NCBI GenBank assembly: GCA_024330215.1
Contig: JANDLU010000004.1
Span: 1-64,000 of the forward strand
Reading direction: 5' to 3'
Length of the DNA stretch: 64,000 nt
Source of the DNA: Candidatus Gaiellasilicea maunaloa
GTDB taxonomy: Bacteria > Actinomycetota > Thermoleophilia > Gaiellales > Gaiellaceae
A program made the position numbers and the translations under genes. Shown piece after piece: positions 13,323-21,326 of this stretch; positions within the stretch are counted from its first letter, which is position 1; the number at the start of each line of letters is the position of its first letter. The notes below the pieces were generated by a model. That model did no database searches. It was not told where the DNA came from and worked only from the letters and a program-made list of their open reading frames with translations.

Positions 13323-14882
13323 CTACCGGACGCGGAAGCTGCTCGAGCCGAGCACGCGGCCGAAGCGCGGCTGCTCGGGCGTCCCGTGGGCCGGAAAGAC
13401 GAACCAGCGATAGAGACCCGGGACGAGCAAGTGGCTCTTGCCGGCGAAGCTCCAGGTTCGCGCGAGGCGGGCCTTCGACACTCGCGGCCAGAAGCTGAGG
13501 ATCTTGACGCCCTTGCGATAGAGCTGGACGTTGTAGTAGCGCGCACCGCGGGCCGGCTCCCACTCGAGCAAGACCGGCGCCCGGACGACGGCGCCCTGTG
13601 CCGGCTGGTAGAGCGGCGGACGCGCTTCGGCCGTGACCGCTGTCTCCGTCGCGTTGCCGGCCTCGTCGGCCACGCGGAGCTCGTAGCGGTAGCGCACGCC
13701 CTTGCGCACGGTGCGGTCGACGAAGGTCTCCTTCGTGCCCCGGAAGACTTCGGTGCTGCGCCTGCCGTTCACGCCGGGGGAGCGGATGATCTGGACGCTG
13801 ATCGCATCGGCCGGCCGATCCCACGCGAGATGCGCGGCGCCCTTCGAGACCTCGGCCTTGACGGCCTTCAGCTTCGGCGCGGTCGCGTCGTACTTGAGCT
13901 CGAACGCGAGCTCACCGGCCGCGTTTCCGGCCACGTCGCGACAGCTCCCGGTCACGCTCGCGGCGCGCGCATCGGGTTTCTCGTAGCGCTTCGGGGCGGT
14001 GCACGACTCGACCCCGGACGTTCCGTCCGTGCCACTGAAACTGACGGTTACCGGCTTGCGGTACCAGCCGTTGCCATCGGGTGGCCGCTCGGCCGCGGCT
14101 CTGACCACCGGCGGACTCGCGTCGTACTTCAGTACAGCACTCGCAGGAGAGCTCGTGTTGCCGGCATTGTCGCGGCAGGTCACACCGACGGAAGCACCCG
14201 TGGTGTCCGGCCCCGCATAGGACGACGAGGTGCACGAGGCAACGCCCGAAACGCCGTCTGTGCCCGACCCGACCACCTTCACCGGAGAGCGGTACCACCC
14301 GCTTCCGTCCGCACCGCGCTCGGGCGAGGCGGTCACTGACGGCGCGGTCGCGTCGTACCTCAGGTTAGCCGAGCCGGTCGCGCTCGTGTTGCCGGCGTTG
14401 TCGGTGCACGTGCCCGAGACCGAAACGCTCGTCCCATCCGAGCCGCTGTACGTCGGGCTCGTGCACGAGGCGATTCCGGACGTCGCATCGCTGCCCGTGA
14501 AGGCCACCGCGACCGAGCGGTTGTACCAGTCGCCCGAGTCCGGGGGGCGTGAGGGCGAGCCGCCGGTGACCTGCGGCGGCGTCGCGTCCCGCTTGATCGA
14601 GACCGTGTTGCCAACGAACGGCGCGCCGTACCAGACCGTGCATGTGAAGGCTGCGCCAGTCGTGTCGGCGGAGACGGTGTTGACGTTGCAGCCTTGCGTC
14701 TGCGTGACACCGGCGGTGTCGTATGTCCACGAAACTGTCACGTCGGTCCGGAACCAGCCACCGCAATCGTCAGGGCCAGGCGAGCAATGAGCAGTCGGCT
14801 GGCTGGCGGCTAAACCTGGTTCGGGCGCAACGCCGAGCACCAATACGAGCGCAAGCAGCGTTCCGACCGCCAACCGCCTCAT
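13323..14882 (-). CDS. secreted multi-domain Ig-like/FnIII surface protein
   Basis: A 519-residue exported protein. The signal peptide is LAVGTLLALVLVLGVAPEPGLAAS (about residues 4-27). Then come about four tandem modules of 75-80 residues. Each opens with a 'RYDATAPSV'-like linker and carries 'WYRSPVKV..SGTDGVSGVASCTS' and 'C.DNAGNTS', with paired cysteines likely forming one disulfide per module. These resemble bacterial Ig-like (Big/HYR-type) domains. The C-terminal 190 residues contain an FnIII-like domain (AHLAWDRPADAISVQIIRS, then YRYELRVADEAGN) and a final beta-rich domain (LLEWEPARGARYYNVQLY). There is no anchor motif, so it is probably released or held by partners. Its ATG overlaps the stop of the anchored protein upstream (ATGA). 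Confidence 0.75.
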   Translation of the reverse strand: MRRLAVGTLLALVLVLGVAPEPGLAASQPTAHCSPGPDDCGGWFRTDVTVSWTYDTAGVTQTQGCNVNTVSADTTGAAFTCTVWYGAPFVGNTVSIKRDATPPQVTGGSPSRPPDSGDWYNRSVAVAFTGSDATSGIASCTSPTYSGSDGTSVSVSGTCTDNAGNTSATGSANLRYDATAPSVTASPERGADGSGWYRSPVKVVGSGTDGVSGVASCTSSSYAGPDTTGASVGVTCRDNAGNTSSPASAVLKYDASPPVVRAAAERPPDGNGWYRKPVTVSFSGTDGTSGVESCTAPKRYEKPDARAASVTGSCRDVAGNAAGELAFELKYDATAPKLKAVKAEVSKGAAHLAWDRPADAISVQIIRSPGVNGRRSTEVFRGTKETFVDRTVRKGVRYRYELRVADEAGNATETAVTAEARPPLYQPAQGAVVRAPVLLEWEPARGARYYNVQLYRKGVKILSFWPRVSKARLARTWSFAGKSHLLVPGLYRWFVFPAHGTPEQPRFGRVLGSSSFRVR

Positions 14883-15502
14883 GCCGCCAGCTCCCTCAGC
14901 GCGTGCCGCCCCGCGACCAACACGATCGTGCCGCCGAGCGCGGCGAGCGCGAGCACGGCTCCACCGAGCGCCAGCAGGCCGCGCTCGAGCGGCTCCGCAG
15001 CGGCGACGGCGCCGGCGAGCCGCGGCGCCAGAGGTTGATCGCGCGGCAGCGAGCGCGGCGCCGGAACGGTCTTCGCGATCGCCTTGGGCGTCGCCCGTCT
15101 CGCCGGCTTCGGCTTCGCCGGCTTGGGCTTCGCCGCCGGAGTCTTCGTTGCACGCGCGTCCACGTCTGGAGCCGCGCGCGGCGGCGCCGAGACCGCCGGG
15201 ACAACGACGGCCGGCGCAGGTTGCGAAATGCGAGGCTGCGCGGATCTGGCCGGAAGCTGGGCGGCTCTAGCCGGAGGCTGCGTCGTCGGAGGCTGCGTCT
15301 TCCGAGGCTGAGTCGTCCGAGGCTGAGTCGTCCGAGGCTGGGGCGTCTGGGCCGGAACCGGATCGGGAGCGACGGCGGATGGCGGCGGATCGGGCGTCGG
15401 CGACCCCGCGCCCGCGTTTCCGACCAGCGCGAGACAGAGGAGCAAGCCTCCGGTCGAAGCGCGCAATCGCCGCACTGACAACCTGTCCTGACGTGCTGGC
15501 AC
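14879..15502 (-). CDS. proline-rich protein with signal peptide and C-terminal membrane anchor
   Basis: A 207-residue protein. An N-terminal signal (STGGLLLCLALVGNAGAG) is followed by a long low-complexity Pro/Thr/Gln and Ala/Lys/Pro region, including five imperfect copies of a QPRTT pentapeptide. One membrane helix (LLALGGAVLALAALGGTIVLVAG) and a short basic tail (RHALRELAA) end the protein. This layout suits a wall-spanning tether. The gene starts at GTG and overlaps the next gene by 4 bp, so the two form one operon. Function is inferred from architecture only. Confidence 0.65.
   Translation of the reverse strand: MPARQDRLSVRRLRASTGGLLLCLALVGNAGAGSPTPDPPPSAVAPDPVPAQTPQPRTTQPRTTQPRKTQPPTTQPPARAAQLPARSAQPRISQPAPAVVVPAVSAPPRAAPDVDARATKTPAAKPKPAKPKPARRATPKAIAKTVPAPRSLPRDQPLAPRLAGAVAAAEPLERGLLALGGAVLALAALGGTIVLVAGRHALRELAA
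15271..15345 (+). repeat. 15-bp minisatellite, five units, in the proline-rich gene
   Basis: Five tandem 15-bp units with consensus TCCGAGGCTGAGTCG, the central ones identical. They encode the repeated QPRTT pentapeptide on the minus strand. The in-frame unit length allows copy-number change without frameshift. Confidence 0.8.
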
Positions 15503-15614: not shown

Positions 15615-18389
15615 CTAGTTGTCGAGCCACCTCCCGTTCCTGGCGCCGAGCTGCAGCGCCGCCGACAGCGCAGCCGCAGCCTGGCGGTTCTTCGCCGACT
15701 GGCCGATCGCCTGGATCGCGATCCCGCCGCCGCCACCTTGAGCCTGGCTCGCACCCTGGCCGAGCCCGTTCAGGTTCGCGGCGGTCGCCGACGAGCCGAC
15801 GCTATTCGACTGGTTCGTCGAGCCGCCGGAGCCGTGGCTGCCGACGCCCACGGGCGTGTTGGAGTTACCGCCCGACAGGCAGCCGCACGTGTCGCGCCCG
15901 AAAGCCTGGATGGCCAACGAGGCGGCAAGCGCGCCCTGCTCGTTCTTTGCTTCCTGACCGATCGCCTGGATCCCGATCCCGCCGGCGCAGCCACAGCCGC
16001 CCGACTGGATCTGCCGGGCGGCCTGCCCCGTCAGGTTGACGTTCAGCGCCTTCGCATCCGAATCGACGCTGTTCGACTGCGATACGTCGCCGCCGTCGCC
16101 GTCACTTGCCACGGCCACCGGCGAGTTGCTGTTCGAGGCGCCGAGCTGGAATGCCCCGGACAGCGCGAGTGCCTCCTGTGCGTTCGACGCCGACTGGCCG
16201 ACCGCCTGGATCGCGATCCCACCCCCGCCGCCTTGAGCCTGGCTCGCGTACTGGCCGAGCCCGTTCAGGTTCGCGGCGGTCGCCGACGACGAGACATCGT
16301 TCGACTGCTCGACCGAGCCGCCGTTGCCGTCGCTCGCCACTCGCACCGGGGAGTTGTCGTTGCTCGCCCCGTCCTGGAGCGCGAACGAGAGGGCCGCGGC
16401 GCCCTGCACGCTCGTCGCCTGCTGACCGATCGCCTGGATGCCGATCCCGCTCGCGCAGCCACAGCCGCCCGACTGGACCTGCTCGGCACCCTGGCCGGTC
16501 AGGTTGACGTTCAGCGCGGTCGCATCCGACTCGACGCTCGACGACTGCGACACCTTGCCGCCGTCGCCGTCGCTCGCGACCCGCACCGGCGAGTTGCTGT
16601 TCGAGGCGCCGTACTGAAGCGCCGCCGACAGCCCGATCGCCGTCTGGTCGTTCGAGGCCGACTGACCGATCGCCTGGATGCCGCCCGAGCCGCCTTGAGC
16701 CTGGCTCGCGCCCTGGCCGAGGCCGTTCAGGTTCGCGGCGGTCGCCGACGAGGAGACGTCGTTCGACTGGTCGACCCAGCCGCCGTCGCCCTCGCTGTCC
16801 ACGCGGACGGGAGCGTTCGTGTTCCCACCCGAGCTGCAACCGCACTCGTCGCGACCGGGGGCCTGCACGGCCAGCGAACCCGCAAGCGCGCCCTGCGTGT
16901 TCGATGCGTTCTGGCCGATTGCCTGGATCCCGTTCGACCCACAGCGGCAGTCGCCGCCGCGCTGAGCCTGGCTCGCGCCCTGCTCGAGGCCGTTCAGGTT
17001 CGCGGCGGTCGCCGACGAGGAGACGTCGTTCGACTGCGTCACCTTGCCGCCGTCGCCGTCGCTCGCGACCCGCACCGGCGAGTTGCTGTTCGAGGCACCG
17101 TACTGCGGCGCCGCCGACAGCGCGATCGCCGTCTGGTCGTTCGAGGCCGACTGGCCGATCGCCTGCGTACCGCCGGAGCCACCCTGCCCCTGCCCGGCAC
17201 CCTGGCCGGTCAGGTTCAGGTTCCCCGCCGCCGCGGACGAACCGACGCTGTTCGACTGCGAGACGTTACCGTCGTCGCCGTCGCTGCCGACCCGGACCGG
17301 GGCGTTCGTGTTCGACGCACCGGATTGGGACGCACCCGAGAGGGCTGCTGCCGACTGCGTGTTCGCGGCATCCTGGCCGATCGCCTGGATTCCGCCCGAC
17401 CCGCAGCCGCAACCGCCGGCCTGAGACTGGCTCGCACCCTGCTCGAGCCCGTTCAGGTTCGCGGCCGTCGCCGACGAGGCGACGCTCGACGACTGCGAGA
17501 CGTTCCCGCCGGCCCCGGGGCTGAGAACCCGCACCGGGGTGTTCGTGTTGCTCGCGCCGTTCTGCCGAGCGGCGGAAAGAGCGCCCGCCGACTGGGCGTT
17601 GTCTGCATCCTGGCCGATCGCCTGGGTGCCACCGGAGCCACCCTGCGTCTGATCCGCGTCTTGCCCGGTCAGGTTCAGGTTTGCGGCCTTCGCGGACGAG
17701 TCGACGCTGTTCGACTGCTCGACCGAGCCGTCGTCGCCGGGGCTGAGAACGCGAACGGAGATGTTCGTGTTCGTCGCACCGCTCTGCTCGGCCGCCGACG
17801 CGGCTGCGGCTTCCTGCTCGCTGTCCGCATCCTGAGCGATCGCCTGCGTACCCGAGCCGCCGGCCGCCTGGTCGGCGTCCTGTCCCGTGGCGTTCAGATT
17901 CGCGGCGGTCGCGTCGGACTCGACGCTATTCGTCTGCGAGACGTCGCCGTCGTTCCCGGGGCTGAGAACCCGCACCGGGATGTTTGTGTTGCTCGCGCCG
18001 TCCTGCTTCGCGACGGAGAGCGCCTGCGCGGCCTGGCTCGAATCTGCCTCCTGGCCGATCGCCTGCGTGCCTCCCTCGCACCCGCACGGGCCGCTCTGCG
18101 TCTGGTCGGCCGACTGGCCGGTGAGGTTCGCGTTCGCCGCCGTCGCATCGGAAGCGACGGTGTTCGACTGCGAAACGTCACCGCTCGAGCCGGGACTCAG
18201 AACGCGAACGGAGATGTTCTGGTTCGTCGGTTGACTCTGCGAGGCGCCCGACAGGGTCCCCGCAGCCTGGCCGCTCGAGGCAGCCTGGCCGGCCGCCTGA
18301 GCGGCAGGATCTCCCGACTCGGCCGCCGCCTGGCCCGCGCCCACGAGGAGCCCGAGCGTCGCGGCGGCAACCGCGAGTATCCGTTTCAT
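15615..18389 (-). CDS. secreted Gln/Asn/Ser-rich protein with 11 tandem repeats
   Basis: A 924-residue exported protein. The signal peptide is ILAVAAATLGLLVGAGQAAAES. Then follow 11 repeats of about 73-88 residues. Each has a core like 'NTNxPVRVxSxGDxGxVxQSNxV', a second unit 'SxATAANLNxxGQxASQxQGG' and a third 'GIQAIGQxAxNxQxAxALSxAxQxGAS'. Regularly spaced Gln, Asn and Ser and alternating small hydrophobics suggest a beta-solenoid or a curli-like amyloid, as CsgA repeats also space Gln and Asn. CxC pairs (for example GGCGCGSGG) sit in loops of some repeats. There is no membrane anchor; the protein ends GRWLDN. The start has a strong AAGGAGAG. It is 76 bp downstream of the partner gene at 18466, so probably in the same unit. 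No named family recognised. Confidence 0.75.
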   Translation of the reverse strand: MKRILAVAAATLGLLVGAGQAAAESGDPAAQAAGQAASSGQAAGTLSGASQSQPTNQNISVRVLSPGSSGDVSQSNTVASDATAANANLTGQSADQTQSGPCGCEGGTQAIGQEADSSQAAQALSVAKQDGASNTNIPVRVLSPGNDGDVSQTNSVESDATAANLNATGQDADQAAGGSGTQAIAQDADSEQEAAAASAAEQSGATNTNISVRVLSPGDDGSVEQSNSVDSSAKAANLNLTGQDADQTQGGSGGTQAIGQDADNAQSAGALSAARQNGASNTNTPVRVLSPGAGGNVSQSSSVASSATAANLNGLEQGASQSQAGGCGCGSGGIQAIGQDAANTQSAAALSGASQSGASNTNAPVRVGSDGDDGNVSQSNSVGSSAAAGNLNLTGQGAGQGQGGSGGTQAIGQSASNDQTAIALSAAPQYGASNSNSPVRVASDGDGGKVTQSNDVSSSATAANLNGLEQGASQAQRGGDCRCGSNGIQAIGQNASNTQGALAGSLAVQAPGRDECGCSSGGNTNAPVRVDSEGDGGWVDQSNDVSSSATAANLNGLGQGASQAQGGSGGIQAIGQSASNDQTAIGLSAALQYGASNSNSPVRVASDGDGGKVSQSSSVESDATALNVNLTGQGAEQVQSGGCGCASGIGIQAIGQQATSVQGAAALSFALQDGASNDNSPVRVASDGNGGSVEQSNDVSSSATAANLNGLGQYASQAQGGGGGIAIQAVGQSASNAQEALALSGAFQLGASNSNSPVAVASDGDGGDVSQSNSVDSDAKALNVNLTGQAARQIQSGGCGCAGGIGIQAIGQEAKNEQGALAASLAIQAFGRDTCGCLSGGNSNTPVGVGSHGSGGSTNQSNSVGSSATAANLNGLGQGASQAQGGGGGIAIQAIGQSAKNRQAAAALSAALQLGARNGRWLDN

Positions 18390-18465: not shown

Positions 18466-20091
18466 CTAGCCCGGCCGCTCTCGCCTCGAGCTCTCCACCT
18501 GCGCCACGACGCCGGAGACTCCGCGCGTGACGCGACGCGCGGTATCGGCGAAGGCGAAGGCGAAGGGAATCAGGAGCAGAAGCAGGAAACCACCGTCGCC
18601 GCCCGAGCTCGGCCCGATGCCTCCCAGGCCCATCGCGGCGGCCGGCACCCGTTCGGGCTCCGAAGGCAGCCGGACCGGCGGGTGGACGAGAGCGCGTTTG
18701 GCGTGCGCGCTGGCGGCCGGGGGTCGAGCCGCCGCGCCCGGGAGCTTGCGTGCCGGCGCGCTCACGGAATGCGTCCAGACGGACGCCATGACGACCGGCG
18801 TCGCGGCAGCGTCGGGAATCCTCCTCGCCGTGCGTCGGACGACGACAGCTCGATCCGGCGGGCTGCTCAGCAGGCCGATGCTCCTGCCGCGCACGGGCCT
18901 GTCCATTTCGAGCTCGACGACCTCGTCTCCCCAGACGAGCTCGAGCACCGTGGCGGCGACCGCGCCGGTCAACTCGACGAGTGCCATCGGTTCCATCGGC
19001 GGCGCGGTCGGCGCATCGTCCAGCGCAGAGCTCGAGGATGGCTCCGGCGGCACGAAGACCGCAGCCACGGCCGCTGTCGCAATCGTGGCGGCTTCTGCGA
19101 CGGCCGTGGCCGCAGAAACCGCGGCCACGGTGGCGACGGTGGCGACCGCCAGGTTCGCCTGCACCACCGGCCCGTTGTCACCCGGACTGCCGATCCGGAT
19201 CGAGACGTTGATATTGACAGGCTGATACCGCCTTGTACTCGTTTGATACTGGCCCGGTGATTGCGCGGCGATATTCTGAGTTGCCCGATCTTCTCCACCG
19301 CAATTCCAATCCCAGTTCCAGTTCCAGTTCGCTGGTATCGATCCACCGGGCGGGAGCTGCGAGAGAGAAACACCAGGGCCGGAATCGTCGCAACCCCAGG
19401 TCCACGTCCAGGTCTCGCCGTTCGGTAGCGGCTGCGCATCCGGGACGAGCTGCCCCGAGACGGCAGGTGCGGCAGCAGCCGACACCGCAGGCTTCGCCGC
19501 AGGCCCCGTCAGCGCTGGTGCGGAGCCGGGCGCGAGGACGGTCACCGGCGAGTCGGCCTGGCTCACATTTAGCTGCGCAACCGCGCCGTCGTTCCCCGGG
19601 CTCTCGACCCGGACGGACACGTTCACGTTGACGGGCCGCACCTGGGAAGCCGGCGTGGCGACTGTCGCCGGCTCGTCGGGACTAACAGCCATCGCCGGCA
19701 GCGCCTCGTCTTCGGCAGTATCAACCGGATCGGGCGTAGTATCAGGTGTTTGTGGCTCGGCGACATGCATCTCTACGGGCGGCGGCGCGGCTTCTGCCGA
19801 TGCGGGCTCTGCCGGTACGGCCGGCGTCGGCTCTGGGGAGTGCGCGACATGAGTCTCGACCATGGCCGACTCCGCAACTGCGACGACGGCAGTCGCGATC
19901 GCCGACGCCTCAGCTGCGACCGCCGCCGCTTCGGGGAGCGCCTGCGCCTGCGGCAGCACCGGCGTCGTCCCCTCCGCGGCAGCTCCGGACGACACGAACG
20001 ACGCGGCGATGACGAGAGTCATCGCTGCGATCGCCGCGCGCCGGAACCTCGAACGCGCTCGAACAGTGATCACAGGTAGTAAATACCCCAC
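18466..20091 (-). CDS. membrane-anchored surface protein sharing the repeat core
   Basis: A 541-residue protein starting at GTG. It has an Arg-rich n-region and signal/hydrophobic segment (AAIAAMTLVIAASFVSSGAAAE). Long Ala/Pro/Glu-rich linkers carry two copies of the core seen in the large repeat protein: VNVNVSVRVESPGNDGAVAQL and VNINVSIRIGSPGDNGPVVQ. Between them is a Trp/Asn-alternating stretch (TWTWTWGCDD and ANWNWNWDWNCGG) with two Cys. A Gly-rich spacer, a membrane helix (FLLLLLIPFAFAFA) and a 25-residue basic tail end the protein. It may anchor or nucleate the repeat protein. It is divergent from the sigma factor gene; the shared intergenic region is AT-richer than its surroundings. 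Confidence 0.7.
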   Translation of the reverse strand: MGYLLPVITVRARSRFRRAAIAAMTLVIAASFVSSGAAAEGTTPVLPQAQALPEAAAVAAEASAIATAVVAVAESAMVETHVAHSPEPTPAVPAEPASAEAAPPPVEMHVAEPQTPDTTPDPVDTAEDEALPAMAVSPDEPATVATPASQVRPVNVNVSVRVESPGNDGAVAQLNVSQADSPVTVLAPGSAPALTGPAAKPAVSAAAAPAVSGQLVPDAQPLPNGETWTWTWGCDDSGPGVSLSQLPPGGSIPANWNWNWDWNCGGEDRATQNIAAQSPGQYQTSTRRYQPVNINVSIRIGSPGDNGPVVQANLAVATVATVAAVSAATAVAEAATIATAAVAAVFVPPEPSSSSALDDAPTAPPMEPMALVELTGAVAATVLELVWGDEVVELEMDRPVRGRSIGLLSSPPDRAVVVRRTARRIPDAAATPVVMASVWTHSVSAPARKLPGAAARPPAASAHAKRALVHPPVRLPSEPERVPAAAMGLGGIGPSSGGDGGFLLLLLIPFAFAFADTARRVTRGVSGVVAQVESSRRERPG

Positions 20092-20158
20092 TCGCTTCTC
20101 GTTGATCCATTTTCTTTGCTTTGGCTCAATTCAGGAAATCGAAGTTGCATAGTTCAGC

Positions 20159-20192
20159 TTGGAATTCATGTGTCGACAAGTTATGTTCGACA
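20159..20192 (+). promoter_or_regulatory. promoter and operator of the SigB/SigF-type sigma gene
   Basis: TTGGAA (20159-20164) and TATGTT (20182-20187) are 17 bp apart. An inverted repeat TGTCGACA (20171-20178) / TGTTCGACA (20184-20192) covers the spacer and -10, as expected for a repressor site. Transcription would start at about 20194-20196, on the GTG itself, giving a leaderless mRNA. Confidence 0.55.
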
Positions 20193-20195
20193 TAC

Positions 20196-20918
20196 GTGAG
20201 CGACGGGATGCCAACCGAGACCGATCAGCTTCTGCAGGCATGGTGCGACGAAGGAGATGCCGATGCCCGCGCGCAATTGATCGAGCGGCACCTGCCGCTC
20301 GTCCGAGCGCTCGCGCGGCGCTTCTCGCACCGGGGCGAGCAGCTCGACGATCTCGTCCAGGCGGGGTCGCTCGGGCTGATCAAGGCGGTCGACCGCTACG
20401 ATCCCGGTCGCGGCTCGTCGCTGGCTGCCTATGCGATCCCGACGATCGTCGGCGAGATCCAGCGCTACCTTCGCGACAGTGCCTCCACGGTGAGGCTGCC
20501 TCGCCGACAGCAGGAGCTCGCCGTCGAGCTCGCCCGGCAGAGCGATGCGCTTGCGGCCGAGCACGGTCGGACCCCCACGCTCCGGGAGCTCGCAGCGGCG
20601 ACAGCGCTTCCCTCGGACGAGGTCGCCACTGCGCTCGCCGACGTCGCAGCCGCTCGGCCGGTGGCGCTCGATGAGAACACCGAGGAAGCCGAGGACGCAG
20701 GGGCCGCACACCGGCTCGAGCTCGGAGTCGAGCGCGTCATGCTCGCACGAGGACTTCGGCGGCTCGACCACCGCGAGCGCCGGATCGTGCAGCTGCGCTA
20801 CTTCGGGGGCCTCAGCCAGCGCGGGATCGCCGCCGAGGTCGGGCTTTCGCAAGTGCACGTCAACAGGCTGCTGACCCGGTCGCTCGGCAAGCTCCGCCGG
20901 GAGATCGGCCAGACGTAG
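20196..20918 (+). CDS. RNA polymerase sigma factor, SigB/SigF/SigG group
   Basis: A 240-residue sigma-70 group 3 factor. Region 2: IERHLPLVRALARRFSHRGE, LDDLVQAGSLGLIKAVDRYDP, and SSLAAYAIPTIVGEIQRYLRD. Region 3: RLPRRQQELAVELAR and GRTPTLRELAAATAL. Region 4: LDHRERRIVQLRYFGGLSQRG and AAEVGLSQVHVNRLL. The GTG at 20196 is preferred because the promoter places the transcript start there; an ATG at 20208 is the alternative. No anti-sigma or anti-anti-sigma gene lies beside it. Its neighbours suggest it controls the divergent surface genes, but no matching promoter motif is proven. Confidence 0.9.
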   Translation: MSDGMPTETDQLLQAWCDEGDADARAQLIERHLPLVRALARRFSHRGEQLDDLVQAGSLGLIKAVDRYDPGRGSSLAAYAIPTIVGEIQRYLRDSASTVRLPRRQQELAVELARQSDALAAEHGRTPTLRELAAATALPSDEVATALADVAAARPVALDENTEEAEDAGAAHRLELGVERVMLARGLRRLDHRERRIVQLRYFGGLSQRGIAAEVGLSQVHVNRLLTRSLGKLRREIGQT

Positions 20919-20951: not shown

Positions 20952-20980
20952 TTGGCTGGATCGTTTCAAGGTCGTACAAT
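20952..20980 (+). promoter_or_regulatory. promoter for leaderless RHH-membrane gene
   Basis: TTGGCT (20952-20957), a 17-bp spacer, then TACAAT (20975-20980). The ATG begins 7 bp after the -10 box, so the transcript should be leaderless. Confidence 0.7.
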
Positions 20981-20987
20981 CCTCGGT

Positions 20988-21326
20988 ATGGGCAGCCGCG
21001 CAGCCCCTGCAGAGCTCATCGCCGCCGACGACCGTGAGAAAGCGCCGAGTGGACGGCTGCTGCTCCGGATGCCGCGGACGCTTCATGCCGAGCTCGCCCG
21101 CGCAGCCGAACGGGAGGGAACGAGCCTGAACGGGTTCATCACCGGCTCGCTCGCCAGCACGATCGGCTGGCGAGGCGAGGACGGCGACTCGCCGGCCCTC
21201 AGCTCTGCGCCGGCGGGACGGCGCCAGACGAGGCTCCTGCTGGCCGTGCTCCTTGCGAACGCCGTCGTCGTCGGCGTCGCCGCGGTCGCCGCGGTCGGGA
21301 TCCTGCTCCTCGCCTGGCTGGGCTGA
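20988..21326 (+). CDS. ribbon-helix-helix (HicB-like) protein with C-terminal membrane helix
   Basis: A 112-residue protein. Residues 21-60 (SGRLLLRMPRTLHAELARAA, then REGTSLNGFITGSLASTIG) match the ribbon-helix-helix fold of Arc/HicB-type DNA binders. After a polar linker, residues 83-110 form one strong membrane helix (LLLAVLLANAVVVGVAAVAAV). A membrane-tethered RHH protein is unusual, and there is no HicA toxin gene beside it. It lies 70 bp after the sigma factor gene on the same strand but has its own promoter. It may act on the operator in the nearby divergent region; this is inference. Confidence 0.75.
   Translation: MGSRAAPAELIAADDREKAPSGRLLLRMPRTLHAELARAAEREGTSLNGFITGSLASTIGWRGEDGDSPALSSAPAGRRQTRLLLAVLLANAVVVGVAAVAAVGILLLAWLG

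Follow-up and report, generated by a model that had tools for sequence, protein, structure and literature searches.

What does a tryptophan-rich stretch do in a membrane-anchored protein that also carries copies of the repeat core of the secreted protein encoded next to it? The question arises from a 64,000-nucleotide stretch of DNA from Candidatus Gaiellasilicea maunaloa (contig JANDLU010000004.1, positions 1 to 64,000), referred to here as the window. The original prediction had placed the protein at 18466-20091, coordinates that proved exact for an open reading frame of 541 aa on the minus strand, and had proposed that its Trp strands would suit a role in templating or docking. We refer to the protein as P0001, to its Trp-rich segment as the W module, and to the neighboring secreted repeat protein as P0002. 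The locus contains the following genes.

13323-14882, minus strand: secreted Ig/Fn3-like protein, with weak matches to Big_3_2 and Big_13 below cut-off
14879-15502, minus strand: Pro-rich protein, hydrophobic toward its C terminus, of uncertain membership in the P0001/P0002 gene string
15615-18389, minus strand: P0002, a secreted Q/N-ladder repeat protein of 924 aa and presumed fibre subunit, with 11 repeats of 73-89 aa and one core in each
18466-20091, minus strand: P0001, the anchored W-module protein, with a GTG start and near-full-length orthologues in genomes G359 and G044
20121-20918, plus strand: divergent SigB/F/G-type sigma factor, its true start probably an ATG near 20208, syntenic in most loci
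20952-21326, plus strand: ribbon-helix-helix (HicB-like) protein with a C-terminal TM helix (RHH-TM), assigned by domain match and syntenic

Sequence and profile searches found no relative of P0001 or P0002 in Pfam, NCBIfam, PHROG or PDB and no match in a plasmid collection; an OST_P2 match to P0002 falls below cut-off. From its N terminus, P0001 runs through a signal peptide, a Pro/Ala linker, a first core, a further linker, the W module and a second core, after which a long linker leads to the TM helix and its basic tail. These parts lie on the minus strand as follows.

19972-20091, minus strand: N-terminal signal peptide region, residues 1-40, VRARSRFRRAAIAAMTLVIAASFVSSGAAA, read from the sequence and 76% identical in G359
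19564-19638, minus strand: core copy 1, residues 152-176, RPVNVNVSVRVESPGNDGAVAQLNV, repeat-core profile 20.1 bits, omega 0.26
19291-19419, minus strand: W module, residues 225-267, ETWTWTWGCDD, then 20 aa, then ANWNWNWDWNCGG, conserved in homologues
19390-19413, minus strand: Trp strand 1, TWTWTWGC (Cys 234), read from the sequence and a low-confidence predicted strand
19300-19329, minus strand: Trp strand 2, NWNWNWDWNC (Cys 264), read from the sequence and a low-confidence predicted strand
19150-19224, minus strand: core copy 2, residues 290-314, QPVNINVSIRIGSPGDNGPVVQANL, repeat-core profile 15.4 bits, omega 0.27
18469-18603, minus strand: TM helix at the C terminus, then a basic stretch and a conserved tail ending in RRERPG, omega 0.31

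The Arg-rich signal peptide, for which a GTG start seven codons downstream is also possible, and the C-terminal TM helix with its basic tail bear out the prediction that P0001 is anchored. No LPXTG-like motif precedes the TM helix in the P0001 sequence. Like the GlyGly-CTERM and MYXO-CTERM types, the C terminus combines a Gly-rich stretch, a TM helix and basic residues, but the P0001-type tail differs from them in being conserved at the very last residues (RLERPG or a variant) and in occurring in few proteins per genome, and the NCBIfam sorting models did not match it. RPG was invariant across a 10-sequence alignment of anchor C-termini. A profile of the tail gave 12 matches at E<1e-10, spread over 11 genomes, and the tail thus marks the P0001-type anchor family and not surface proteins generally. 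A simple anchor would not usually be conserved at its final residues, which are presumably cytoplasmic here and may act as a sorting or regulatory tail. We note that (R)LERPG or a variant, following a TM helix and basic residues, terminates anchors in several families of the class (18469-18480; L200-L218). The window's genome also encodes a second anchor (contig 65, L030:3-2525) with three core-like stretches, Q-rich repeats and a TRPG tail, in which the W region is looser (WTWD, WTWNWE and WIWN, with four Cys). In G001, of the same genus, the 3′ part of an orthologue of this second anchor precedes a gene for a secreted protein rich in Gly, Ser and Asn (L236).

The two cores of P0001, VNVNVSVRVESPGNDGAVAQ and VNINVSIRIGSPGDNGPVVQ, both fit the pattern NxSxRxxSPGxxGxVxQ. 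A profile built from the 11 P0002 cores scored P0001 at 21.8 bits, whereas 5,000 shuffles reached 7.5 bits at best. Across anchors, the same profile scored 21.8-41.9 bits, including 24-29 bits for the anchors of G009, G057 and G006, which lack a W module. It indicated two cores each in P0001 and the anchors of G359, G044, G076, G064 and G006, and one or two in those of G009 and G057; it did not match the anchors of G051 and G367, and the G277 anchor has one looser core that is readable by eye. The claim that the cores match those of the secreted repeat protein therefore held as homology but not as a shared strict pattern, which fits only repeats 1 and 3 of P0002, the others having P for S, or SDG, SEG or SHG for SPG. 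We conclude, from sequence comparison, that the P0001 cores are homologous to the cores of the adjacent secreted repeat protein.

The anchor cores are closest to P0002 repeat 1, the preceding QP/RP included, and in the window their similarity declines across the 11 repeats from first to last (rho -0.88, permutation p 0.0006). The gradient in G359 (rho -0.94) is orthologous to that of the window and so is not independent, and with few repeats G076 and G009 gave rho -0.70 (p 0.12) and rho -0.63 (p 0.24), such that the gradient is significant in G000, the window's own genome, and its close orthologue only. A simpler cause may be that the later, C-terminal repeats of P0002 are recent, divergent duplications. 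P0002 itself contains nine occurrences of the ladder QxNxVxSxAxAxNxN (none in 500 shuffles), the alternating conserved residues of which are as would be expected of long beta strands. Its 924 residues include 2 Trp, and its 14 Cys are found in seven C-x-C pairs in loops of some repeats. Such C-x-C pairs are also present in the repeat proteins of G359, G076, G051 and G367, a tally that leaves out G044, where the repeat frame is not cleanly readable.

Trp accounts for 16% of the W module and 0.4% of the remaining P0001. As predicted, Trp alternates (residues 228/230/232 and 256/258/260/262), an arrangement that would turn every Trp to the same side of a strand, and the stretch is flanked by Cys, with Cys 234 and Cys 264 directly following their respective Trp blocks. 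The mature protein contains three WxWxW motifs, whereas any occurrence was seen in just 33 of 20,000 shuffles of the mature protein, and of the 4 occurrences of the DNA motif TGGNNNTGGNNNTGG in the window, against 0.10 expected, 3 fall within the P0001 gene. A W-module profile searched against 399 genomes of the class identified five at E < 1e-10, namely, G000, G044, G051 (two modules), G076 and G359; those matches at E 0.001-0.01 that were read were unrelated proteins. In 396 genomes drawn from the phylum, the window's own genome was the sole match. Whole-protein searches of relatives returned a full-length relative in G044 that was 36% identical, plus further ones. Moreover, the G359 orthologue is 61% identical overall though its GTDB family differs from the window's, and a misbinned contig in G359, where the contig is short, or in G000 (5% contamination) could explain so close an orthologue across families.

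The original prediction had been made contingent on conservation of the Trp/Asn stretch in homologues, and conservation was found. In the G359 orthologue all 7 Trp and the two Cys are retained even as the neighboring residues vary (WTWTWG to WTWTWS, NWDWN to NWNWN), and the pattern is kept in G044, in G076 and twice in G051. Between P0001 and G359, dN/dS was 0.20 for the W module, 0.26-0.27 for the cores, 0.31 for the TM helix and tail, and 0.40-0.83 for the linkers. The stretch could alternatively be low complexity or spurious, a chance reading of a GC-rich repeat, and TGG repeats did often arise from low-complexity DNA in other frames in a DNA pattern scan of the genome contigs. The protein pattern, however, is conserved with synonymous changes (pS 0.56 versus pN 0.18 relative to G359), orthologues occur across several genera, and HMM scores are strong. 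A chance or low-complexity origin is refuted by this conservation and retains a vanishingly small probability. That scan was for two WxWxW blocks; the in-frame ones among the at least 120 matches listed were low-complexity or other-frame readings, and none was accompanied by a core. We conclude from the substitution pattern that the W module is under purifying selection.

The W module and the cores are separable. The predicted placement of the module between two cores holds in G000, G359 and G044 but not in G076, where both cores precede the module, nor in G051, where there is no core. Similarly, only part of the homologues keep both elements: the G051 anchor has two W modules without a core, and G009, G057, G064, G006 and others have cores without a W module, the four named genomes encoding repeat proteins as well. 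Many of the genomes are incomplete metagenome-assembled genomes, in which a single-genome absence is weak evidence. Anchors of both kinds argue against the proposal that the W/N strands themselves template or dock P0002 through heterotypic beta pairing with the core. In favor of that pairing, Trp strands and core are both predicted beta strands in a low-confidence model, and the W strands share a protein with the cores and adjoin the repeat gene. Against it, P0002 is nearly devoid of Trp, and the conserved Cys pair suggests pairing inside the module. Heterotypic pairing of W strands with the core was thus unsupported, and we consider it quite improbable.

AlphaFold models were obtained for residues 145-325 of P0001 from a single sequence (pLDDT 41.1), with strands at both Trp blocks (pLDDT under 60), and for three P0002 repeats from a 9-row internal alignment (pLDDT 47.5), with strands only and at low confidence. 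Because the models are of low confidence and no database match was found, we infer fold and function for both proteins. We propose, as a reading that stands about an even chance of being right, that P0002 builds a surface fibre whose base, an adaptor or nucleator anchored in the membrane, is P0001, and that the W module is a disulfide-stapled accessory. Secreted P0002 would assemble into a Q/N-ladder beta fibre, and P0001 would be held in the membrane through its C terminus with Pro/Ala linkers spanning the wall. The P0001 cores would pair homotypically, by beta pairing, with the N-terminal repeats of P0002, holding or nucleating the fibre at the cell. By displaying the fibre's first repeat in copy, P0001 would play the part that CsgB plays for CsgA. 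The cores are the probable docking sites and better candidates than the W strands if templating or docking exists. Core-based docking would not be universal, as the anchors of G051 and G367 have no detectable core.

The W module is regarded as an accessory because many anchors lack it. It would be a compact beta module rich in Trp, made up of two amphipathic strands that turn Trp to one side and Thr/Asn/Asp to the other. Cys 234 and Cys 264 would form one intramolecular disulfide within it, and the module would brace or stiffen the stalk or offer an aromatic face to a wall glycan or partner. Designed tryptophan zippers, which consist of alternating W-x-W beta strands (Cochran et al. 2001, as cited in PMC7915549), resemble the module in having such strands with Trp on one face, two of which are found here. 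The module differs from them in being natural, in having 28-33 residues between Cys, and in having a Cys after each strand. As a short antiparallel hairpin would keep the two Cys far apart, strands running the same way would fit better than a classical antiparallel Trp zipper, and an internal bond would favor parallel adjacent strands or a three-strand meander over a plain hairpin. The meander would make use of the V/S/I-rich middle stretch (VSLSQL, IVSSISS, HVTTISMS). In all W-bearing anchors, about 22-26 residues separate the third Trp of block 1 from the first Trp of block 2. In the same anchors, Cys beyond the signal peptide are confined to the module (two; four in G051) and lie 28-33 residues apart, whereas most W-less anchors have no Cys past the signal peptide, although G064 has a pair and the frame of G301 is uncertain.

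Two other roles for the module were weighed against that of a stapled accessory to a fibre base. In the first, the module would be an aromatic platform for glycans or the wall, binding peptidoglycan or extracellular polysaccharide in the manner of a small carbohydrate-binding module and tying anchor and fibre to it. A solvent-facing Trp row with polar Thr/Asn/Asp partners on a disulfide-stabilised beta scaffold would suit this role, as would the extracellular position between signal peptide and TM helix and the presence of the module in only some anchors, as expected of a ligand-specific add-on. No carbohydrate-binding family was matched in Pfam or NCBIfam, however, nor any PDB sequence, and the i/i+2 Trp spacing of ~7 Å is shorter than usual for flat polysaccharide binders; we regard the platform as unlikely, if worth keeping in view. 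The other role has the module Cys forming intermolecular disulfides, either in an anchor dimer or with the C-x-C loops of P0002. The seven C-x-C pairs of P0002 and those of the G359, G076 and G051 repeat proteins would offer partners, but C-x-C repeats co-occur with a Cys-less anchor in G367, and the Cys-Cys spacing within the module is kept at 28-33 residues, as for an internal bond. Intermolecular disulfides accordingly seem improbable to us.

The fibre-base reading finds its closest parallel in curli, in which surface-anchored CsgB shares repeat units with Q/N-rich CsgA and the regulator is encoded divergently (PMC4551309, PMC9900396). CsgB anchors or seeds the CsgA fibre (PMC4551309). P0001 and P0002 likewise pair an anchored minor protein with a neighboring secreted Q/N-rich repeat protein with which it shares repeat units, next to a divergent regulator, the putative nucleator thus sharing repeats with a subunit encoded alongside; the likeness is an analogy of arrangement and not homology. 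P0002 differs from curlins in its repeats of 73-89 aa, in having 0 matches to the consensus S-x5-Q-x4-N-x5-Q, and in giving no match to Curlin_rpt in a Pfam search up to E=1. P0001 differs from CsgB in being a TM protein with long linkers and in its W module, which has no counterpart there, and a sigma factor and RHH-TM protein stand at its locus in place of CsgD. An outer-membrane pore of the CsgG type is not expected in a monoderm. In the monoderm Bacillus subtilis, TapA is an assembly and attachment protein encoded beside the TasA fibre protein (PMC4551309), and the P0001 and P0002 genes adjoin in like manner. Unlike that pair, P0001 and P0002 match no named Pfam or NCBIfam family, and repeat sharing with TasA is not described for TapA in PMC4551309. 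A literature search on actinobacterial curlin-like fibres and on natural WxWxW zippers found nothing relevant.

The sigma factor and RHH-TM genes are divergent from the anchor gene, and the repeat, Pro-rich and Ig/Fn3-like genes lie downstream of it. By tblastn, the set of sigma factor, RHH-TM protein, anchor and repeat protein was found in G044, G076, G051 and G009, while G277, G301 and G367, which belong to other families of the class, have a sigma factor, an anchor with the RLERPG tail and a repeat protein. The Ig-like gene is syntenic in G044, G076, G051, G009, G277 and G301, whereas the Pro-rich protein had no family match and no tblastn match in relatives. The sigma factor matched TIGR02980 at E 2e-64, just under the cut-off of that model, and the RHH-TM protein had matches at E <= 1e-4 in 34 of 399 genomes of the class. 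It is possible that the RHH-TM protein beside the sigma factor is a membrane-tethered regulator of the fibre locus.

We suggest, tentatively and with more doubt than confidence, that this actinobacterial-type class has a surface fibre system in two parts that is as yet undescribed, encoded at the locus. Its membrane-anchored nucleator would combine copies of the fibre's first repeats with a novel disulfide-stapled Trp-strand domain, and its control would lie with a dedicated sigma factor and a DNA-binding regulator bound to the membrane. If so, a soil-type, mostly uncultured class would own a nucleator-plus-fibre system that is curli-like in its working without detectable homology, and would provide a second case for testing fibre seeding by a cell-anchored repeat copy. 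Designed tryptophan zippers would then have, in the W module, a counterpart that is natural and evolvable.

A GGGTAT box, which we take to resemble a SigB-type -10 element, is conserved upstream of the anchors in G000, G359 and G051 and absent from G044, G076 and G009; no -35 match was found. The box lies in a block conserved in G359 (20060-20110) and overlaps the annotated GTG start of P0001. Should it indeed be a -10 box of the SigB type, P0001 would be translated from a start further downstream, for example, the GTG at residue 8. We also note that in G057 a gene for a NarL/LuxR-type response regulator lies between the anchor and the sigma factor (L200:5600-6366).
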